From Salinisphaera orenii subsp. halophila YIM 95161 (GTDB taxonomy: Bacteria; Pseudomonadota; Gammaproteobacteria; Nevskiales; Salinisphaeraceae), in NCBI RefSeq assembly GCF_003732545.1, contig NZ_AYKF01000035.1, positions 1-64,000 on the forward strand: a stretch of 64,000 bases of DNA, given 5' to 3'. Position numbers and translations under genes: made by a program. The notes under the pieces are model-generated. The model was given only the letters and a program-made list of their open reading frames with translations. It did not search any database and was not told the origin of the DNA. Of the stretch, positions 56,275 through 63,981 are shown in pieces (the first letter of the stretch is position 1; every line of letters begins with the position of its first letter).

Positions 56275-57105
56275 TCAGTCGCGTAGTGCGAAGTCCAGAA
56301 TCGCGGGTTTGTCTGCATAATCGACGATGTCCGCGTTGGCGTGCGCTAGTAAGCCGCGGGCATCGTCGAAAGCGTTATAGCGCTTGTCGTTGTCGCTCGG
56401 CCCTTCGACAGCAAACAGGAATCGACCGTCAAAGAGGCGCCGTCTCCGTAGCTCGGCTAATCGGAATTGCCAGCGATTCGCATGCTCGAGAATCGCGCTC
56501 GGCGTTGCCTGGTCGAGATTGAGTGGCTTCATTACTTTGAACGCGCGGCCGTCCCGTTGTTCGACAAACGGCAATTCCGGCGTTTCATATTCGTCGTTGC
56601 CCAGCCGAGCTGACGTGAAACGCGCACTCGCATGGACCTCTTTCAGCCAGCGGCCGAGGCCGCGTGCCAGTACGGTTTCGCGATGCTCGGGCGTAGCAAA
56701 GCTACGATGCACGTAATACTGATGCAGCGTCTTGAGTTTCTTTTCCGGGCTTTCGGCCAGAACGATACGAGGATCGCTGAAACGTACAATGCTTTCACGC
56801 GGCCGAATCAGTTCTTCGAATAGCGTGTTGATGCCAGCGCCAGGGTCGAAAGCCGTACCGTGGCGTTTGATCAAAGCCTGGATGCGTCCGAGCTCGACAC
56901 GAAGTTCCTTTATCGACTGGCGATAGAGTCGGCTGTCCATATCGTCAAAGAACTGCGTGATCCGCTTGTATCGTCGCGTTTCCAGTTCAAAGCCGAAATA
57001 GCCTCGGTCCGCGGCCATTAGAACAATGCCCGCGTTCGCGAATTCGCCCGTTTCCACGAACGGCGCGAAACGCACGATAGCGTATTGGCAGGCAGTACGG
57101 TTCAT
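56275..57105 (-). CDS. DUF3037 family protein, partner of a HipA_2 kinase
   Basis: A 276-residue DUF3037 protein. The signature YAIVRFAPFVETGEFANAGIVL (about 8-29) opens the sequence; the middle and end are charged and helical. Its ATG overlaps the HipA_2 gene stop (ATGA at 57102-57105). DUF3037 genes are typically paired with HipA_2 kinases, and the pair is suspected to act in defence or growth control; the mechanism is unknown. Last gene of the hsd operon, AT-richer than the core genome. Confidence 0.9.
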   Translation of the reverse strand: MNRTACQYAIVRFAPFVETGEFANAGIVLMAADRGYFGFELETRRYKRITQFFDDMDSRLYRQSIKELRVELGRIQALIKRHGTAFDPGAGINTLFEELIRPRESIVRFSDPRIVLAESPEKKLKTLHQYYVHRSFATPEHRETVLARGLGRWLKEVHASARFTSARLGNDEYETPELPFVEQRDGRAFKVMKPLNLDQATPSAILEHANRWQFRLAELRRRRLFDGRFLFAVEGPSDNDKRYNAFDDARGLLAHANADIVDYADKPAILDFALRD

Positions 57106-57833
57106 CGAATAGTCCAGAACGCTTCGGACTCGAAGGCCATCAGTAGCGCGAAGGCGTCGGCGAAATCAAACGGCACGGGATCCAGATAATCGGCGTCGAG
57201 ATACCGCCATTCGTCCGGAATGTCGCCAAGGATCTTATCCCAGTTCGCCATTGCGGCGATCAGCTTTCGAGTGTACTCGGTGCGTGTGACCATGTCACCG
57301 AACACGGTTTCCGCCTCTCGACGAAAGATGTGATAGGCGAGAAAGTCTCGCGACTCTACGGTGTCGTCGAGCGCGACATTGTGATCGATTACGATTAGCT
57401 CCTGTTGGTCCGGCGCCCAGAACAGGTTCGGATTGCCGCCTTGCTCGGTGAAATACCGATCCCCGTTCTTGATCCACCAGTCGAACAGCAGAACGTCTTG
57501 TTTCGTTTGCGACGGCACGGATTGCGCTGATTCCCAGGTCAGCTCGTTTGCGCGTCGTTGTTTCGAGGCGAACACGGGGCCGGAACCAAGGTCGGCAAGC
57601 TCAAGGCGTGCAGGGCCGTTCAAAAGCTGCGCCGGTACGTGCGCGATCCGGAAATCCGGTACCGGCAGCTCCAATTCCCGCGCCAGGCATCCGCAAATCC
57701 ATTCGCAGATCAGACTGCGTCGGCCGGCATCCCGCCCTTTGACGAAGTAAATTGCGTCATCGCTGCCTCGGCAGATGAAAGGCCGGGTTTTGCCTTGAAC
57801 CGACCGATCGATGACTTCGACGATTTCGATCAT
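57102..57833 (-). CDS. HipA_2-type protein kinase-like protein
   Basis: A 243-residue member of the HipA_2 group: shorter than HipA toxins but with the kinase centre. The catalytic loop is WWIKNGDRYFTEQGGNPNLF (NxDR about 122) and the metal site VIDHNVAL (Asp-His about 150). The N-terminal lobe has RPFICRGSDDAIYFVKG. It lacks a HipB partner; DUF3037 follows instead with a 4-bp overlap. Its ATG overlaps the hsdR stop as TGATG (57831-57835), so it is translated in coupling with the restriction subunit. Confidence 0.88.
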   Translation of the reverse strand: MIEIVEVIDRSVQGKTRPFICRGSDDAIYFVKGRDAGRRSLICEWICGCLARELELPVPDFRIAHVPAQLLNGPARLELADLGSGPVFASKQRRANELTWESAQSVPSQTKQDVLLFDWWIKNGDRYFTEQGGNPNLFWAPDQQELIVIDHNVALDDTVESRDFLAYHIFRREAETVFGDMVTRTEYTRKLIAAMANWDKILGDIPDEWRYLDADYLDPVPFDFADAFALLMAFESEAFWTIR

Positions 57834-60175
57834 CAGCGGTACAGATGATCCTGAATACCAAAGAACGCACCGCGAATCTCAGGTATCGAACCCAGCTGGT
57901 TTTTTGCATCGCTCGTGCCGCCATAGCGAATGCGCAGAAAATGCGGGATGCGGTCCGCGGCGAGTTCGTTTACGCCGTGCGTTTCATACGCGTTGAGAAT
58001 GTAGTCGAGGAACGCCCGCATCTCCGGTTCGTAGCCGGCCAGCCCGGTTTCGCGGGCGCGCTCGGCGCGCTCGCGCCGCGCCAGCGGGGCTAGTGTGAAG
58101 CGGATGTAGGCCAGCACGTCGAAGATGTCGCTGTCCGGCGCGTCGATCAGGCGGCGCATGTCGTCGAGGCGATCGCGGTCGTAATCCATTTCCGCCAGGC
58201 GTTCGATGAAGGCGCTGCGTTGGTCCGGATCGCTCCAGATTGCGCGGAGCTGCTCTTCGGATTCGACCAGCCCGGACAGGTCGCCGAAGAGCTGTTCCAT
58301 GAACTGTTGCGCGGTGATCGGCGTGCCGTCGTGTGACCAGTAGCTGGTGGTCGTGAGATAGCGGATACGACGGGCCTTGCCGTCGGCCAGCTTCACGACG
58401 ATCTTTTCGGGGCCTGCATCGCCGTCGCCGGGTTCGGGGGCGTCTGGTTCGTCGTCGGAGTCTTCGACGCCTTCGGGGGTCAGTTCGGGCGCGTCCGGGT
58501 ACGGTTTCGGTTCCGGCAGTTCCGGCGGCTCGGGCTCGCCGTCCCATTCCGGGTCCTTGAAGTGTTCATGGGCCTTGACAAAATCATAGACGGTGAAGAA
58601 ATACTTGCCGTCGAACACGCGCGTGCCACGGCCGATGATCTGCTTGAACTCGATCATCGACTTGATCGGCCGCATGAGCACGATATTGCGTACGTTGAGC
58701 GCGTCCACGCCGGTGGAGAGTTTCTGGGACGTGGTGAGGATCGTCGGCAGCGTCTTTTCGTTGTCCTGGAACCGGCGCAGGAAGGTTTCGCCCGCCGCGC
58801 CGTCGTCCGCGGTCACGCGCACGCAGTAATCCGCGTCCGGGTTGGTCTTGATCTGGTTGATGTAGTCGCGCACCCGTGCGGCATGGGCCTGGGTGGCACA
58901 GAACACCAGCGTCTTCTGGCGTTGATCGATCTCCGCCATGAACTGGGCGACGCGGCTTTGTTCGCGTTCGTCGATCTGGATCTTCGTATTGAAGTCGGCC
59001 TCGGTATACAAGCGGTCGTAGTCGATCTCGCCGGCCAGCACTTCGTCCTCGCCCGAGAACGAATAGGTATCCAGCGTGCTCGCCATCTGGCGCACCTTGA
59101 ACGGCGTGAGATAGCCGTCGTTGATGCCTTCCTTGAGCGCATAGGTATACAGCGGCTCGCCGAAATAGGCATAGGTATCGCCATTGGCATCCCGCTTGGG
59201 CGTCGCCGTCAGGCCGAGCTGCACGGCGGGCGAGAAATGTTCGAGAATCGCTCGCCACTGGCTCTCGTCCCGTGCGCCGCCCCGGTGGCATTCGTCGATG
59301 ATGATGAAATCGAAGAAATCCGCCGGATAGCCCTCGAAGGTGAATTCGCGTTCGGCGTCTGTCTTCCCCTCCGTCATGAAGGTCTGAAAGATGGTGAAGA
59401 ACACGCTCGCGTTCTTGGGCAGCTTGCCCTGCTTGCGAATCTCGTCCGGGCTGATACGGCACAGCGCGTCGGCCGGAAAGGCCGAAAACGCATTGAAGGC
59501 CTGATCTGCCAGAAAGTTGCGATCCGCCAGAAACAGAATCCGCGGCCGCCGCGTCGGCTCGCGGGACAGATTCCAGCTGGCCTGAAACAGCGTCCAGGCG
59601 ATCTGAAAGGCGATGCCGGTTTTGCCCGTGCCGGTCGCCAGCGTGAGCAGCATGCGGTCGCGGCCCTGGGCGATCGCCTCCAGCACGGCCGTAATCGCAT
59701 TGTGCTGGTAATAACGCGGTTGCCATTTGCCGCCGCCGGTCTGGAACGGCACATTGCCGAAGCGTTCGCGCCAGCCGTTGTGCTGTGGAAAACAGCGGTC
59801 CCACAACGCCTGCGGCGAGGGGAAGGGCAGGTCGAGATCGCCTTCCGCGCCGGTTGCCATATCCACGCCGTACCAGCGCTGCCCGTTGGTGGCATAGGCA
59901 AAACGCGTGTTCAGCCGCTGGGCATAGGCCTTGGCTTGGGCCAGCCCTTCCGTATAACCCAGCCCGGCGCGCTTGGCCTCGATAACCGCCAGCTTGCGCC
60001 CGTTCAGGCTTAGCACGTAATCGGCTTTTAGCGGATTGATCCGCCCGGCGGTGGTAATGCGGCCCCTGGCGATCTCTTCGCGGGCAACACGGCTACCGTC
60101 GACGACACCCCAACCTGCGCCCCGTAGGACGGGATCGATACGATTGGCGCGGGTATCGGCTTCGGTTTCTTTCAT
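57833..60175 (-). CDS. hsdR: type I restriction endonuclease subunit R
   Basis: A 780-residue HsdR. The N-terminal PD-(D/E)xK nuclease shows LAVIEAKRAG (about 63-72). The SF2 translocase has Walker A ATGTGKT (about 180), DECH (about 292), LTATPKRD and the motif VI GRGTRVF. The C-terminal part carries an acidic linker (Glu/Pro/Asp-rich, about 545-585) and the HsdM-contact domain. It cuts DNA far from unmethylated sites, powered by ATP. It lies 4 bp behind hsdS and overlaps the kinase gene. Confidence 0.97.
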   Translation of the reverse strand: MKETEADTRANRIDPVLRGAGWGVVDGSRVAREEIARGRITTAGRINPLKADYVLSLNGRKLAVIEAKRAGLGYTEGLAQAKAYAQRLNTRFAYATNGQRWYGVDMATGAEGDLDLPFPSPQALWDRCFPQHNGWRERFGNVPFQTGGGKWQPRYYQHNAITAVLEAIAQGRDRMLLTLATGTGKTGIAFQIAWTLFQASWNLSREPTRRPRILFLADRNFLADQAFNAFSAFPADALCRISPDEIRKQGKLPKNASVFFTIFQTFMTEGKTDAEREFTFEGYPADFFDFIIIDECHRGGARDESQWRAILEHFSPAVQLGLTATPKRDANGDTYAYFGEPLYTYALKEGINDGYLTPFKVRQMASTLDTYSFSGEDEVLAGEIDYDRLYTEADFNTKIQIDEREQSRVAQFMAEIDQRQKTLVFCATQAHAARVRDYINQIKTNPDADYCVRVTADDGAAGETFLRRFQDNEKTLPTILTTSQKLSTGVDALNVRNIVLMRPIKSMIEFKQIIGRGTRVFDGKYFFTVYDFVKAHEHFKDPEWDGEPEPPELPEPKPYPDAPELTPEGVEDSDDEPDAPEPGDGDAGPEKIVVKLADGKARRIRYLTTTSYWSHDGTPITAQQFMEQLFGDLSGLVESEEQLRAIWSDPDQRSAFIERLAEMDYDRDRLDDMRRLIDAPDSDIFDVLAYIRFTLAPLARRERAERARETGLAGYEPEMRAFLDYILNAYETHGVNELAADRIPHFLRIRYGGTSDAKNQLGSIPEIRGAFFGIQDHLYR

Positions 60176-60179
60176 TGTT

Positions 60180-61406
60180 CTAATTTAGTTCGCCGGCGAA
60201 CGCCCTTTCAAGAACAGACTGACGCAACGCGGAGATATCTTTCAGCTTGCTTGTGTAGAGCCTCTCTAGCTCGACTTTGTTCGCGAAAGCCCTCTCGCAC
60301 CCAAAAGCCACTTCCTTCTGCAGTTCGATCGAAGCAGGTACGTGCAACGATATCTTCTTAAGCAGTTTCGCTTTTATACCAAGCACCGTCGCCCCGGTTG
60401 CTTGGGAATGAATGTCAGCCTGCATCTGAGGCGAGAGCAATGACCATTTCAGAAAACCAGGATCGATTTCGTCGCGGTCCGTCTGCATCGTGATCAGCCG
60501 TTGCCCGATAACTACCTTGCCGGGAGTTTGAAGCTGAGCGACATTGGCCAGCGGCGCCTCAGTGGTAAAAAGAACGTCGCCAACTTCAGGGAAGCCTCGC
60601 GTCATCCATTTCTCATAAGCGTTTTCCTCCACAAACTCTTCTGGCTCGGTTTTAATAAATCCTAGCCGAACATTCTTAGCGGTAATCAGAGGGATTCCGT
60701 TATCGCATTTGGGTGGTGTTTTCCCCCGGTAATCCAGAAATCGAACACGTTTCGATAGGTCTTCGCTCGGCCATGTCGAACGCACAGAGAATATGTTCTC
60801 GATTACCGATTCGTAGAGCGCCTGCGAATTCGAAAGGTTACCATCGGTCAGAATCCGAGCGCGGTCGAGGGCGGCGAAGGCCTCATCGAGCGCCGCAACG
60901 ATTCGCTTCTGCTCGTCTAGCGGCAATAACGGAATTTGGAGTGACTTGAGCGTTTCTGTCGAAAGCCGATGAACCGTAGCGCTGCTGCTTACGCTTGCTA
61001 ATAACTGTGATTCCACGCTTTTTAAGAAATAGGCAAGGAAACGCGGCGATAAAACAGCTTTAGGGACCAGCGCTTTTATGTCTTGGTTAACTGTCAGGTT
61101 GCAACCTGACAATGCAATTGGAACTGTTCGAGAAAGAATCCCTGAGCGTACGACGATTAGTACTGCTCCGGTAGGAATTGATTTCGCAGATGAGCCGTTA
61201 ATCGCCTCCGGCGTAATTCGATCGATAGAATTCGTGATGATGTGAGACTTCATGTCCTTGGGAGAAACCCAAGGAATATCGCCATTCCAGAAGTCCGGCT
61301 GCTTCTTCGATGGTGTACCACCGCCAACGAATCTCACTACATCACCTAGATTGGCTGTCTGCCAGTTAGCGGACGAAGTGATATCAGGTGCCACGAGGGC
61401 GCTCAC
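60180..61406 (-). CDS. hsdS: type I restriction-modification specificity subunit S
   Basis: A 408-residue HsdS with two target-recognition domains (about 14-170 and 215-375). Each is followed by the conserved helical spacer: LPLDEQKRIVAALDEAFAAL near 160-180 and the helical end ALRQSVLERAFAGEL. Each TRD reads one half of the bipartite target; the target cannot be predicted here. It starts at GTG overlapping hsdM (GTGA at 61403-61406). Base composition is AT-richer than hsdM and hsdR, as usual for exchanged specificity genes. Confidence 0.95.
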   Translation of the reverse strand: MSALVAPDITSSANWQTANLGDVVRFVGGGTPSKKQPDFWNGDIPWVSPKDMKSHIITNSIDRITPEAINGSSAKSIPTGAVLIVVRSGILSRTVPIALSGCNLTVNQDIKALVPKAVLSPRFLAYFLKSVESQLLASVSSSATVHRLSTETLKSLQIPLLPLDEQKRIVAALDEAFAALDRARILTDGNLSNSQALYESVIENIFSVRSTWPSEDLSKRVRFLDYRGKTPPKCDNGIPLITAKNVRLGFIKTEPEEFVEENAYEKWMTRGFPEVGDVLFTTEAPLANVAQLQTPGKVVIGQRLITMQTDRDEIDPGFLKWSLLSPQMQADIHSQATGATVLGIKAKLLKKISLHVPASIELQKEVAFGCERAFANKVELERLYTSKLKDISALRQSVLERAFAGELN

Positions 61407-62854
61407 AACATCTCCCTAATCTCTTCCAGAATCCGCGCCGTCTCGGCATCCCGTGCCAGCATGTCGCCGATGATTTCTTCCGGGCTGCGCAGCGGCGCTT
61501 CTTCGGGCGCGTTGGGGTTCTTGACCGCCAGATCCCAGGTCGCCGGGTTGATATCGTCGGTGGCGATGGTCCAGCTCTTGTCGCTAGCGGCTTTGCTCGG
61601 GTGCAGTTCGACGAACTCGGCCAGGTCGGCGTCGTTCAGCGGGTTGGTCTTGCCGAGGCTGCGGCCGGGGTCGAGCTGGTAGTACCAGACGTGTTGGGTC
61701 GGCGCGCCTTTGTCGAAGAACAGCACGACGGTCTTCACGCCCGCGCCCTGGAAGGTGCCGCCGGGGCAGTCGAGCACGGTGTGCAGGTTGCAGGTGGTGA
61801 GCAGTTCCTTGCGTAGATCCACGCTGGCGTTGTCGGTATTCGACAGGAAGGTGTTCTTGATGACCACCGCGCCGCGCCCGCCGGCGCGCAGCATGCGGAT
61901 GAAGTGCTGCAGGAACAGGTACGCCGTTTCGCCCGTCTTGATGGGGAAGTTGTGCTGCACTTCCTTGCGCTCGCCACCGCCAAAGGGCGGATTGGCCAGC
62001 ACCACGTCGTGGCGCTGGGCTTCTTGAATCTCCAGCACGTTTTCGTTGAGCGTATTGGCGTGGGTGATGGCCGGCGTCTCGATGCCGTGCAGGATCATGT
62101 TCATGATGCCGATCACATAGGCCAGCGATTTCTTTTCCTGCCCGTAGAAGGTCTTGCGCTGGAGCGTGTCCCATTCGCTGGTCGAGAGGCTATCGCTTTT
62201 GAGGTGTTCGTAGGCTTCGCATAAAAAGCCGGCCGAGCCGCAGGCGCCGTCGTAGATCGTCTCGCCCAGCTTCGGATCGGTTACGCGAATCATGGCGCGA
62301 ATGAGAGGGCGCGGGGTGTAGTACTCGCCGCCGTTGCGCCCGGCGTTGCCCATGCGGCGGATACGGGTTTCGTACAGATCCGACAGCTCGTGCTTGGCCT
62401 GCTGGCTGTTGAAGGTGAGCGTGTCGACGATCTCGATGGCATCGCGCAGGGCATAGCCGGAGCGGAACTTGCAGATGATCTCGGAAAAGATCTCGCCGAT
62501 CTTGTATTCCAGCGTGTCCACGCCGGGCGCGCTGTTGCGGAAGGTCTGCAGGTAGGGAAACAGTTCGCGGTTCACGAACTCGATGAGATCGTCGCCGGTT
62601 TTCGCTACGTTGTGATCGAAATTGCCGTGTTCGTCCTTCGGCGCGGCCCAGGCTTGCCAGCGGTAGGCGCCGTCCAGAATCGGCCGATATTCGCGGCCTT
62701 CCAGCTCGGCGTTATCGGCGCGCTCGGCTTCGCGGTCGTCGAGATATTTCAGGAACAACAGCCAGGAGGTCTGCTCGGCATAGTCCAGCTCGGTGGCCAT
62801 GCCCTCGTCGTTGCGCAGGGCCTTGTCGATATTGTTGAAGGCGTTTTCGAACAT
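61403..62854 (-). CDS. hsdM: type I restriction-modification DNA methyltransferase subunit M
   Basis: A 483-residue N6-adenine methyltransferase. The HsdM N-terminal helical domain (FENAFNNIDKALRNDEGM) precedes the SAM-binding loop DGACGSAGFL (about 203) and the catalytic NPPFGG (motif IV, about 290). It methylates the target and forms the MTase core with HsdS. First gene of the hsd operon, preceded by 108 bp after the PIN gene. Confidence 0.97.
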   Translation of the reverse strand: MFENAFNNIDKALRNDEGMATELDYAEQTSWLLFLKYLDDREAERADNAELEGREYRPILDGAYRWQAWAAPKDEHGNFDHNVAKTGDDLIEFVNRELFPYLQTFRNSAPGVDTLEYKIGEIFSEIICKFRSGYALRDAIEIVDTLTFNSQQAKHELSDLYETRIRRMGNAGRNGGEYYTPRPLIRAMIRVTDPKLGETIYDGACGSAGFLCEAYEHLKSDSLSTSEWDTLQRKTFYGQEKKSLAYVIGIMNMILHGIETPAITHANTLNENVLEIQEAQRHDVVLANPPFGGGERKEVQHNFPIKTGETAYLFLQHFIRMLRAGGRGAVVIKNTFLSNTDNASVDLRKELLTTCNLHTVLDCPGGTFQGAGVKTVVLFFDKGAPTQHVWYYQLDPGRSLGKTNPLNDADLAEFVELHPSKAASDKSWTIATDDINPATWDLAVKNPNAPEEAPLRSPEEIIGDMLARDAETARILEEIREML

Positions 62855-62962: not shown

Positions 62963-63529
62963 TCAGATCAAATCCTTGAATTCGGCCAGGCGTTCCGCGG
63001 TTACGACCAGCCCCTGTGCCGCCAGTGTCTCGAGTAGCTGGTCGGCGCTGATCGGCGGTTTTTTGAGCGTGTCGCGTTGTGCCTTGGCCGCGGTCACGAC
63101 CGCACCTTCACGCAATGTCATCTGATATTCGATGAAGGCGTCGGGATGTACCGCCTCAATGTCGTACGGTTCCAGATGCTTGGCGGGGAAATCTTTCAGA
63201 TTGAACGGGACGATGGTCTGCGCGCCGGCCTTGATTGCGGCGGCGAGCACGTGGCGGTCGTTCGGGTCGGGGAGTTCGAGGCCTTCGATCAGCGGCTCGT
63301 AGTGGGTTACGACGCTGTCGGGAATGGCTTCGTTCATCAGCGTTCGCGTTCGTTCGAGCCGGTCGCGCGCCAGGTCCGGCCGGCGCTCTAAAAGATTGTC
63401 GATCCACTCATCGTGTATGCGCTCGGTCCAGCGGGCCGCGAACAGGTCGGTCAGCGCCAGGTTCAGTAGAAAATCCCGCAGCGGGGCGGGGTACAGAACG
63501 CAGGCATCGAACAGAACGACGAAGCGTAT
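62963..63529 (-). CDS. PIN-domain ribonuclease toxin with ATA in place of the start codon
   Basis: A 188-codon frame with an intact PIN domain: FVVLFDACVLYPAPLRDFLL (Asp at position 8), HDEWIDNLL (acidic pair about 40-41), LPDPNDRHVLAAAIKAG and a following NLKDFP supply the four acidic positions. Homologues I recall start MRF at this point. Here the codon is ATA (63527-63529), overlapping the antitoxin stop as TGATA where TGATG would be expected. No ATG, GTG or TTG occurs in frame until residue 65, after part of the active site. So the toxin is silenced or weakly translated from ATA or the neighbouring CTG. Confidence 0.8.
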   Translation of the reverse strand: MRFVVLFDACVLYPAPLRDFLLNLALTDLFAARWTERIHDEWIDNLLERRPDLARDRLERTRTLMNEAIPDSVVTHYEPLIEGLELPDPNDRHVLAAAIKAGAQTIVPFNLKDFPAKHLEPYDIEAVHPDAFIEYQMTLREGAVVTAAKAQRDTLKKPPISADQLLETLAAQGLVVTAERLAEFKDLI

Positions 63530-63981
63530 CAGTAACCCAGATCGTTCTCCTGGGCTTGCTCTGCCAGCTCGGCAAGCAGCGCATGGCTTCGTTCGAGTCG
63601 GGCGTTCTTGTAGTCCACTACATCCTGGAATCGAATGCGGCGATGCGAACCTGCCTTGGTAAAGCTGATCTCACCGTCTTCGAGCAGTTTGATGAGATGC
63701 GGACGCGAGACATTCAGCATGTCGGCCGCCTGTTGGGTGGTCAGCTCGGCATGCGTGGGCACAATCGTGATGGCGTGCCCCTGCGCCATGTCTGCAAGTA
63801 AATCACGAAGCAAAGCCAAGGCTTGCCGGGGAAGTACGAGATCCTGCCCGTCGAGATTGACCCGAGCGCGATCAGAGGCGGGTTGGGCGCGAAGCAGCCG
63901 CGTCAAGGCCTGGGCGCTTTCGCGGGCGAGAGCGGCGGATTCTTCGTCGGGCAGAGCGCCGGTCGTGGATTCTGCGGTCAT
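63529..63981 (-). CDS. excisionase-family HTH antitoxin for the PIN toxin
   Basis: A 150-residue protein. A MerR/excisionase-like helix-turn-helix (LTTQQAADMLNVSRPHLIKLLEDGEISFTKAGSHRRIRF, about 80-118) ends with the wing motif typical of this antitoxin group. The N-terminal part (RARVNLDGQDLVLPRQALALL) is also conserved in such antitoxins. It precedes the PIN gene with a one-base overlap. A strong AGGAG site precedes the ATG. It should neutralise the toxin and repress its own promoter, which lies near the window edge. Confidence 0.9.
   Translation of the reverse strand: MTAESTTGALPDEESAALARESAQALTRLLRAQPASDRARVNLDGQDLVLPRQALALLRDLLADMAQGHAITIVPTHAELTTQQAADMLNVSRPHLIKLLEDGEISFTKAGSHRRIRFQDVVDYKNARLERSHALLAELAEQAQENDLGY

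Follow-up and report, generated by a model that had tools for sequence, protein, structure and literature searches.

The hsd operon and its HipA_2-DUF3037 pair

The DNA analysed here, referred to as the window, is a stretch of 64,000 nucleotides from Salinisphaera orenii subsp. halophila YIM 95161 (contig NZ_AYKF01000035.1, positions 1 to 64,000), and the element in question is a type I restriction-modification (RM) operon followed by genes for a HipA_2 kinase and a DUF3037 protein. The five genes lie on the minus strand and run from 62854 to 56275 in the order hsdM, hsdS, hsdR, HipA_2 and DUF3037:

61403-62854, minus strand: hsdM, type I N6-adenine methyltransferase, 483 amino acids (aa) (Pfam N6_Mtase 2.1e-61, HsdM_N 1.8e-8; PADLOC MTase_I 2.6e-156)
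60180-61406, minus strand: hsdS, specificity subunit, 408 aa, GTG start (Pfam Methylase_S 4.4e-24)
57833-60175, minus strand: hsdR, restriction/translocase subunit, 780 aa, EcoEI-type C-terminus (Pfam ResIII 3e-37, EcoEI_R_C 2.7e-24, HSDR_N 4.8e-8; PADLOC REase_I 1.5e-126)
57102-57833, minus strand: HipA_2 kinase, PDC-M66A-like putative toxin, 243 aa (Pfam HipA_2 1.9e-88; PADLOC PDC-M66A 9.2e-12)
56275-57105, minus strand: DUF3037 protein, PDC-M66B-like putative antitoxin/sensor, 276 aa (Pfam DUF3037 6e-24; PADLOC PDC-M66B 1.7e-19)

The five gene calls of the first-pass annotation proved correct, with Pfam and PADLOC naming all five alike, and every junction it had described was confirmed in the sequence: hsdM and hsdS overlap by 4 base pairs (bp; GTGA), hsdS and hsdR are separated by a 4-bp gap, the hsdR stop and the HipA_2 start meet in TGATG, and the DUF3037 gene lies directly downstream of the kinase gene through an ATGA overlap. 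With full-length hsdR, hsdM and hsdS frames in a single operon, this is a complete type I RM operon of predicted activity. The overlaps suggest that the hsd genes and the pair are made from one transcript; a promoter and terminator scan of the operon gave roughly the level of shuffled sequence, and is therefore uninformative on internal promoters. The 4-bp overlap between HipA_2 and DUF3037 was found in 75 of 88 loci, a count biased towards overlap because the candidate DUF3037 start codon nearest the kinase stop was chosen. The five-gene arrangement is more than a chance one, for Salinisphaera japonica (L061) has it too, and when its block was aligned with the window, including 600 bp upstream and 700 bp downstream, identity was only about 40% outside the hsdM start and the DUF3037 stop.

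The kinase residues N123, D125, N134 and D150, which we take to be catalytic from their roles in HipA kinases, are invariant in 54 aligned sequences. The HipA_2 model is a small kinase fold (predicted local distance difference test, pLDDT, 95.6) whose nearest Foldseek matches were actin-fragmin kinase and PI4K, HipA (4pu5) appearing at rank 18; three glycoprotein matches of the kinase profile among solved structures (best E 0.004) were judged chance-like. For the DUF3037 protein (pLDDT 93.5; predicted template modelling score, pTM, 0.70), the sequence search of solved structures gave no match, and Foldseek with the model returned nothing at E 0.001, the N-terminal domain not having been searched alone. 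The best structural alignments of residues 136-276 were with nucleases of the PD-(D/E)XK fold, BstEII (Z 9.2), Cdn1 (8.8), BsoBI (8.7) and PspGI (8.2), and the C-terminal domain can tentatively be called nuclease-like, on VIA Z-scores of 8-9 that barely exceed those of Rossmann-like rows (7-8). Among 56 relatives, no acid is conserved in the C-terminal strands where acids would be expected, and the conserved residues of this domain are K193 and P194 (55/56 each), W212 (56/56) and H208 (52/56). A dead nuclease site is argued against by E143 in the preceding helix, acidic in 56/56, and by residues 170-171, acidic in 62-71%.

At three loci (L050, L078 and L100) the DUF3037 N-terminal domain is present and the C-terminal domain was unmatched by profile. 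The neighbouring kinase frames are full-length, at 244-249 aa, with motifs checked in L078 and L100, and an N-terminal domain alone may thus be enough to neutralise the kinase. Because the C-terminal match is missing at these loci, and DUF1829 and retron-type C-termini are reported elsewhere, the protein appears to combine a constant, kinase-restraining N-terminal part with a changeable, sensing C-terminal part, and this apparent split points to where a phage cue may be read. DUF1829 was absent among the 11 families listed for the 56 relatives (E 0.1). A rather improbable elaboration is that DUF3037 acts as a two-part antitoxin, in which the N-terminal domain would restrain the kinase and the nuclease-like C-terminal domain would be a DNA-binding decoy, so that DNA-mimic anti-restriction proteins would strip it off DNA or the kinase and free the latter; if true, this would account for a cassette that lands in many type I families without co-evolving with their subunits. 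At L060, L107 and L135 the kinase frame is broken or short and the DUF3037 frame of normal length, as fits a toxin with its antitoxin; at L134 both frames are short.

A second toxin-antitoxin-like pair lies just upstream of hsdM (62963-63981, minus strand), comprising an HTH_17 protein (63529-63981, minus strand) and a PIN_3 protein. The PIN_3 frame reaches the HTH stop and has no ATG, GTG or TTG before 63337. The domain match, however, reaches further upstream than that codon, and translation may instead start at a CTG or ATA beside the HTH stop. Neither protein was matched upstream of hsdM in S. japonica.

Recurrence of the pair in type I operons

The first-pass annotation saw in the pair an extension of the type I operon, a view that is supported, and called for a genome survey of the adjacency. 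Scanning a single genome for each species yielded 75 named loci with HipA_2 relatives, at which hsd genes were detected by profiles built from those same loci. DUF3037 follows HipA_2 in 75/75 (by tblastn or profile; shortened in a few). At 35 loci hsd genes are present on the strand of the pair no more than 3 kb away, and at 25 no more than 100 bp away. The proposal thus passes the adjacency check set by the first-pass annotation itself: the arrangement is not limited to this strain, and a strain-specific accident is excluded. R, M and S are all present in 23 of the 35 linked loci, some of which have other genes, up to about 1.5 kb, between hsd and the pair. Within 1.5 kb, linkage was found at 33/75 named loci as against 1/30 loci of classic HipA_C (Fisher 2e-5). 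Upstream gaps of 40 bp or less, measured on mechanical open reading frames (ORFs) of at least 100 aa, characterise 27/36 upstream-linked loci versus 9/47 unlinked ones. At L120 (a 175-aa hsdR piece) and L108 (hsdR and hsdS pieces), the pair stands beside apparent hsd remnants, as if it had outlived its RM host.

The position of the pair within the operon varies. The order M-S-R-pair is shared by the window, S. japonica L061, Sulfuriferula L083, L106 and L123; other loci show R-M-S-pair (e.g., L063, L080, L084 and L111), R-S-pair-M (L074, L087, L088, L093, L098 and L132), M-S-pair-R (L119) or pair-R-M-S (two near-identical Gallionella loci). The earlier proposal that coupling fixes the stoichiometry of the kinase with the restriction subunit is not supported, since elsewhere the pair comes after hsdS, ahead of hsdR or in the hsdS-hsdM interval; in any case, stoichiometry is not set by an overlap of start and stop codons.

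If the genes were plain neighbours in a defence island, with neither a functional nor a transcriptional link, defence genes would be expected to cluster as they do, and at 40 of the 75 loci there is indeed no hsd gene on the strand of the pair within 3 kb (upstream sequence being insufficient for a judgement at 4 of the 40). Among eight scanned upstream neighbours of unlinked pairs, three were defence-like, namely PDC-S08/5'-nucleotidase (L062), a helicase with weak AbiO/Nhi/PDC-S14 matches (L096) and Mrr (L122). Three were housekeeping-like (PreP at L070, S13 carboxypeptidase at L100 and ribonucleotide reductase at L104), and nothing was matched at L107 in both libraries or at L133 in PADLOC, the one library used there; no single common partner emerged from these eight. 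However, linked hsd genes lie on the opposite strand at only 2/75 loci (35:2, binomial p 1e-8), the pair overlaps hsdS or hsdR stops, and linkage in the controls is low, at 1/30 for classic HipA_C and 1/80 for viral contigs, which makes mere neighbourhood highly improbable.

Toxin-antitoxin pairs can serve as addiction modules, and the main role of the pair might accordingly be to stabilise the RM operon in the genome or, say through phosphorylation of Hsd subunits, to tune restriction, and not to act against phage. The segment from the hsdM start to the DUF3037 stop does behave as a single unit between the two Salinisphaera species, with unrelated flanks. This role is nevertheless very unlikely, as pairs exist without hsd genes (40/75) and viral contigs carry them, which fits defence or exclusion at least equally. 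In the best 80 of 133 viral relatives, DUF3037 directly follows the kinase in 79/80 and an hsd-like ORF lies within at most 6 kb a side in 1/80. Moreover, related pairs are reported to defend (PMC13092281; PMC12548924).

Separate histories of the pair and the restriction genes

The 82 kinases (42 unlinked, 37 type I and 3 undecided) were placed on a quick maximum-likelihood tree, on which no fewer than 19 changes of the type I label are needed, starred branches forcing 10 of these; shuffled labels need 27.5. Type I linkage is therefore read from the kinase tree as repeated gain and loss plus some inheritance. Co-divergence was assessed on 24 linked loci with R and M, the near-copy L118 having been dropped beforehand. 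Distances were strongly correlated between HsdR and HsdM (Mantel r 0.97) and between HipA_2 and DUF3037 (r 0.85), whereas HipA_2 and HsdR gave r 0.22, and 0.07 among distant pairs. The HsdR proteins of the linked loci fall into eight groups at 40% identity, within which the cassette is mostly more divergent than its host; between L068 and L084, for instance, R and M are 83% and 84% identical and the pair 53% and 56%. Between the window and S. japonica, synonymous divergence (dS) was 0.45 for hsdM and 0.71 for hsdR, versus 2.8 for hipA2, 1.6 for DUF3037 and 2.7 for hsdS, the latter three values being near saturation. The history of the pair and of hsdS is therefore older, or has run faster, than that of the backbone, and both allele exchange and rapid evolution are compatible with the dS data. 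Closely related kinases were also seen in L081 and L082 (short contigs binned as Bacteroidota) and in L084 (Sedimenticola), reflecting either cross-phylum transfer or misbinned contigs of metagenome-assembled genomes.

These results bear on the special tie to HsdR that the first-pass annotation had proposed in suggesting that the kinase might guard this subunit. PrrC, embedded in a type IC locus, is activated when T4 Stp inhibits EcoprrI (PMC12707154), and by this precedent the pair could be silenced by, or monitor, the Hsd complex and fire when a phage anti-restriction protein disables it. The recurrent type I linkage with tight junctions and the weak residual correlation between the divergence of the pair and that of HsdR are consistent with such a role. 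Yet 40/75 close pairs lack an hsd gene on their own strand within 3 kb, operon position and HsdR group are variable, the pair is far more divergent than HsdR and HsdM in most compared loci, and the Retron-Sda1 operon, described without hsd genes, still defends (PMC12548924). A guard of the type I enzyme is thus unlikely: one specific to HsdR is disfavoured, an obligate HsdR partner being disfavoured by variable gene order and weak co-divergence, and sensing of anti-restriction is possible.

Other occupants of type I operons were sought around relatives of the L074-type HsdR, found at E 1e-100 in 29/369 genomes. The pair was unseen in the 20 stretches inspected; hsdS and hsdM were both visible in 13 of them, and at least one ORF lies between the two in 13/13. 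These ORFs are mechanical, a few are antisense, and as the longest were kept first genes can be masked; larger ones, selected, were scanned in 8 of the 13 loci, the occupants at L308, L315, L321, L322 and L324 lying outside the scan. Each of the eight scanned intervals (within L308-L326) holds a different defence module: an OLD/AriA-like ATPase (L309), a patatin phospholipase (L310, where a further 387-aa ORF had no Pfam match), DzbA/DzbB of Dazbog (L313), PDC-S18 (L318), GmrSD/HEC-06 (L319), Fic (L320), PDC-M28B/C (L325) and DarG (L326). In 16 stretches of the window's own HsdR family the pair was unseen (L327 being unreadable, with an antisense ORF masking hsdR), and several contain further ORFs between the three hsd genes; of 14 genomes searched, both Salinisphaera genomes carrying this HsdR at >80% identity have the pair. 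Judged from these sequences, the pair is one cargo among many in type I operons.

A probable second layer behind restriction, and its known relatives

The favoured reading, to which we give a probability of about 0.68, is that the locus is a type I operon that acquired a mobile HipA_2-DUF3037 defence cassette as exchangeable downstream cargo, providing a second, growth-arresting layer that is probably self-sufficient. The pair is best read as exchangeable cargo because its linkage is scattered, it accompanies eight HsdR groups in five gene orders, it shows little co-divergence with the RM genes, and other modules occupy the space between hsdS and hsdM. The genes, their junctions, the recurrence, the strand bias and the independent histories of pair and RM genes were observed here; the function in this strain, the trigger and the target we infer. 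HsdRMS would cut unmodified phage DNA and the DUF3037 protein would keep HipA_2 inactive, until an infection cue not prevented by restriction frees the kinase, which would then phosphorylate a host target, probably one in translation, and so arrest growth. Restriction would thus be backed by an exchangeable layer of abortive infection encoded on the shared transcript.

Several results weigh against this reading. Close relatives are over-represented among the 75 loci, which also include near-copies, so that the percentages are not genome-wide rates. In the genome draws, linkage was found at 3/15 strong HipA_2 loci (p 0.10 versus the HipA_C control, not significant), two of the 15 also being in the 75-locus set and one of the three linked loci being S. 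japonica, already among the 75; weaker loci were linked within 1.5 kb in 0/17, and 12 still weaker or cut loci (L013-L020 and L042-L045) were left out of the count. The pair was likewise found in 0/29 of the HsdR-relative loci returned (flank at most 1.5 kb; a 274-genome class draw with 126 matching), and it is therefore a rare cargo of the window's HsdR family. Some unlinked pairs, too, have defence-like neighbours. Type I linkage is more clustered on the kinase tree than chance (0/500 shuffles as low), a weak residual correlation joins DUF3037 and HsdR (r 0.28, p 0.005), and Nitrosomonas L063 and L067 have kept pair and RM genes together at 89-96% throughout; these three observations indicate some shared inheritance.

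If the favoured reading holds, a single-strain curiosity becomes a countable pattern, in which type I operons host second-layer modules that can be exchanged, the HipA-like kinase pair recurring among them. The natural with/without pairs that this provides could then separate an independent backup from an anti-restriction alarm.

By its kinase residues, its partner and its match to both PADLOC PDC-M66 models, the pair is assigned to the HipA_2-DUF3037 modules of the PDC-M66/HipAD kind. The kinase matches its model moderately and only in part (residues 3-155, E 9e-12), and therefore probably belongs to a divergent branch. PDC candidates stem from a guilt-by-embedding study, reportedly the preprint Payne 2024, and HipAD is said to have been treated by Brenes and Laub 2025. 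In the literature searched, with Payne 2024 and bioRxiv outside its scope, a HipA_2-DUF3037 pair was not described as a type I extension. A coliphage record whose kinase is 32% identical is annotated as HipA toxin and HipD antitoxin, with genes overlapping by 4 bp; the record of a Shinella plasmid match is unannotated. Classic HipBA has the HipA-like kinase fold in common with the window pair, but combines HipA_C with a HipB-type helix-turn-helix (HTH) partner, whereas the window pair shows only HipA_2 and DUF3037 (Pfam, E 0.001); HipA_C had no match anywhere in the window's genome.

The closest functional parallels come from work by others on relatives. HipAD, the renamed DS-6 of an E. coli prophage found with DefensePredictor, likewise has a DUF3037-type partner directly behind a HipA-like kinase; defence is lost on catalytic mutation of the kinase, and its authors suggest a toxin-antitoxin mode (PMC13092281). 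The window pair differs in sitting in a type I operon, and DS-6B is described with DUF3037 plus DUF1829, the latter not found in the relatives of the window protein. Defence against Bas51 by Retron-Sda1 depends on the HipA-like kinase but works without the reverse transcriptase, noncoding RNA or HTH gene, and the construct becomes toxic once DUF3037 is deleted (PMC12548924). There, too, a two-gene module adjoins another defence system and is active without it, the neighbour being a retron rather than type I RM. The idea of the kinase as a second line, raised in the first-pass annotation, gains support because such related pairs defend and the DUF3037 partner detoxifies the kinase (PMC12548924; PMC13092281), and by analogy the window pair may also defend against phage, with DUF3037 neutralising its kinase.

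As for cargo within type I loci, one precedent involves DarT, which is an ADP-ribosyltransferase. EPEC DarTG2 is likewise a toxin-antitoxin defence cargo within an hsd operon, but with this other toxin, placed between hsdS and hsdR and accompanied by the RptR repressor (PMC12255303). PrrC-EcoprrI, similarly, puts a toxic translation blocker in a type I locus (PMC12707154); PrrC, however, is an anticodon nuclease under the control of the RM enzyme, whereas the effector in the window is a kinase for which Hsd control is hypothetical.

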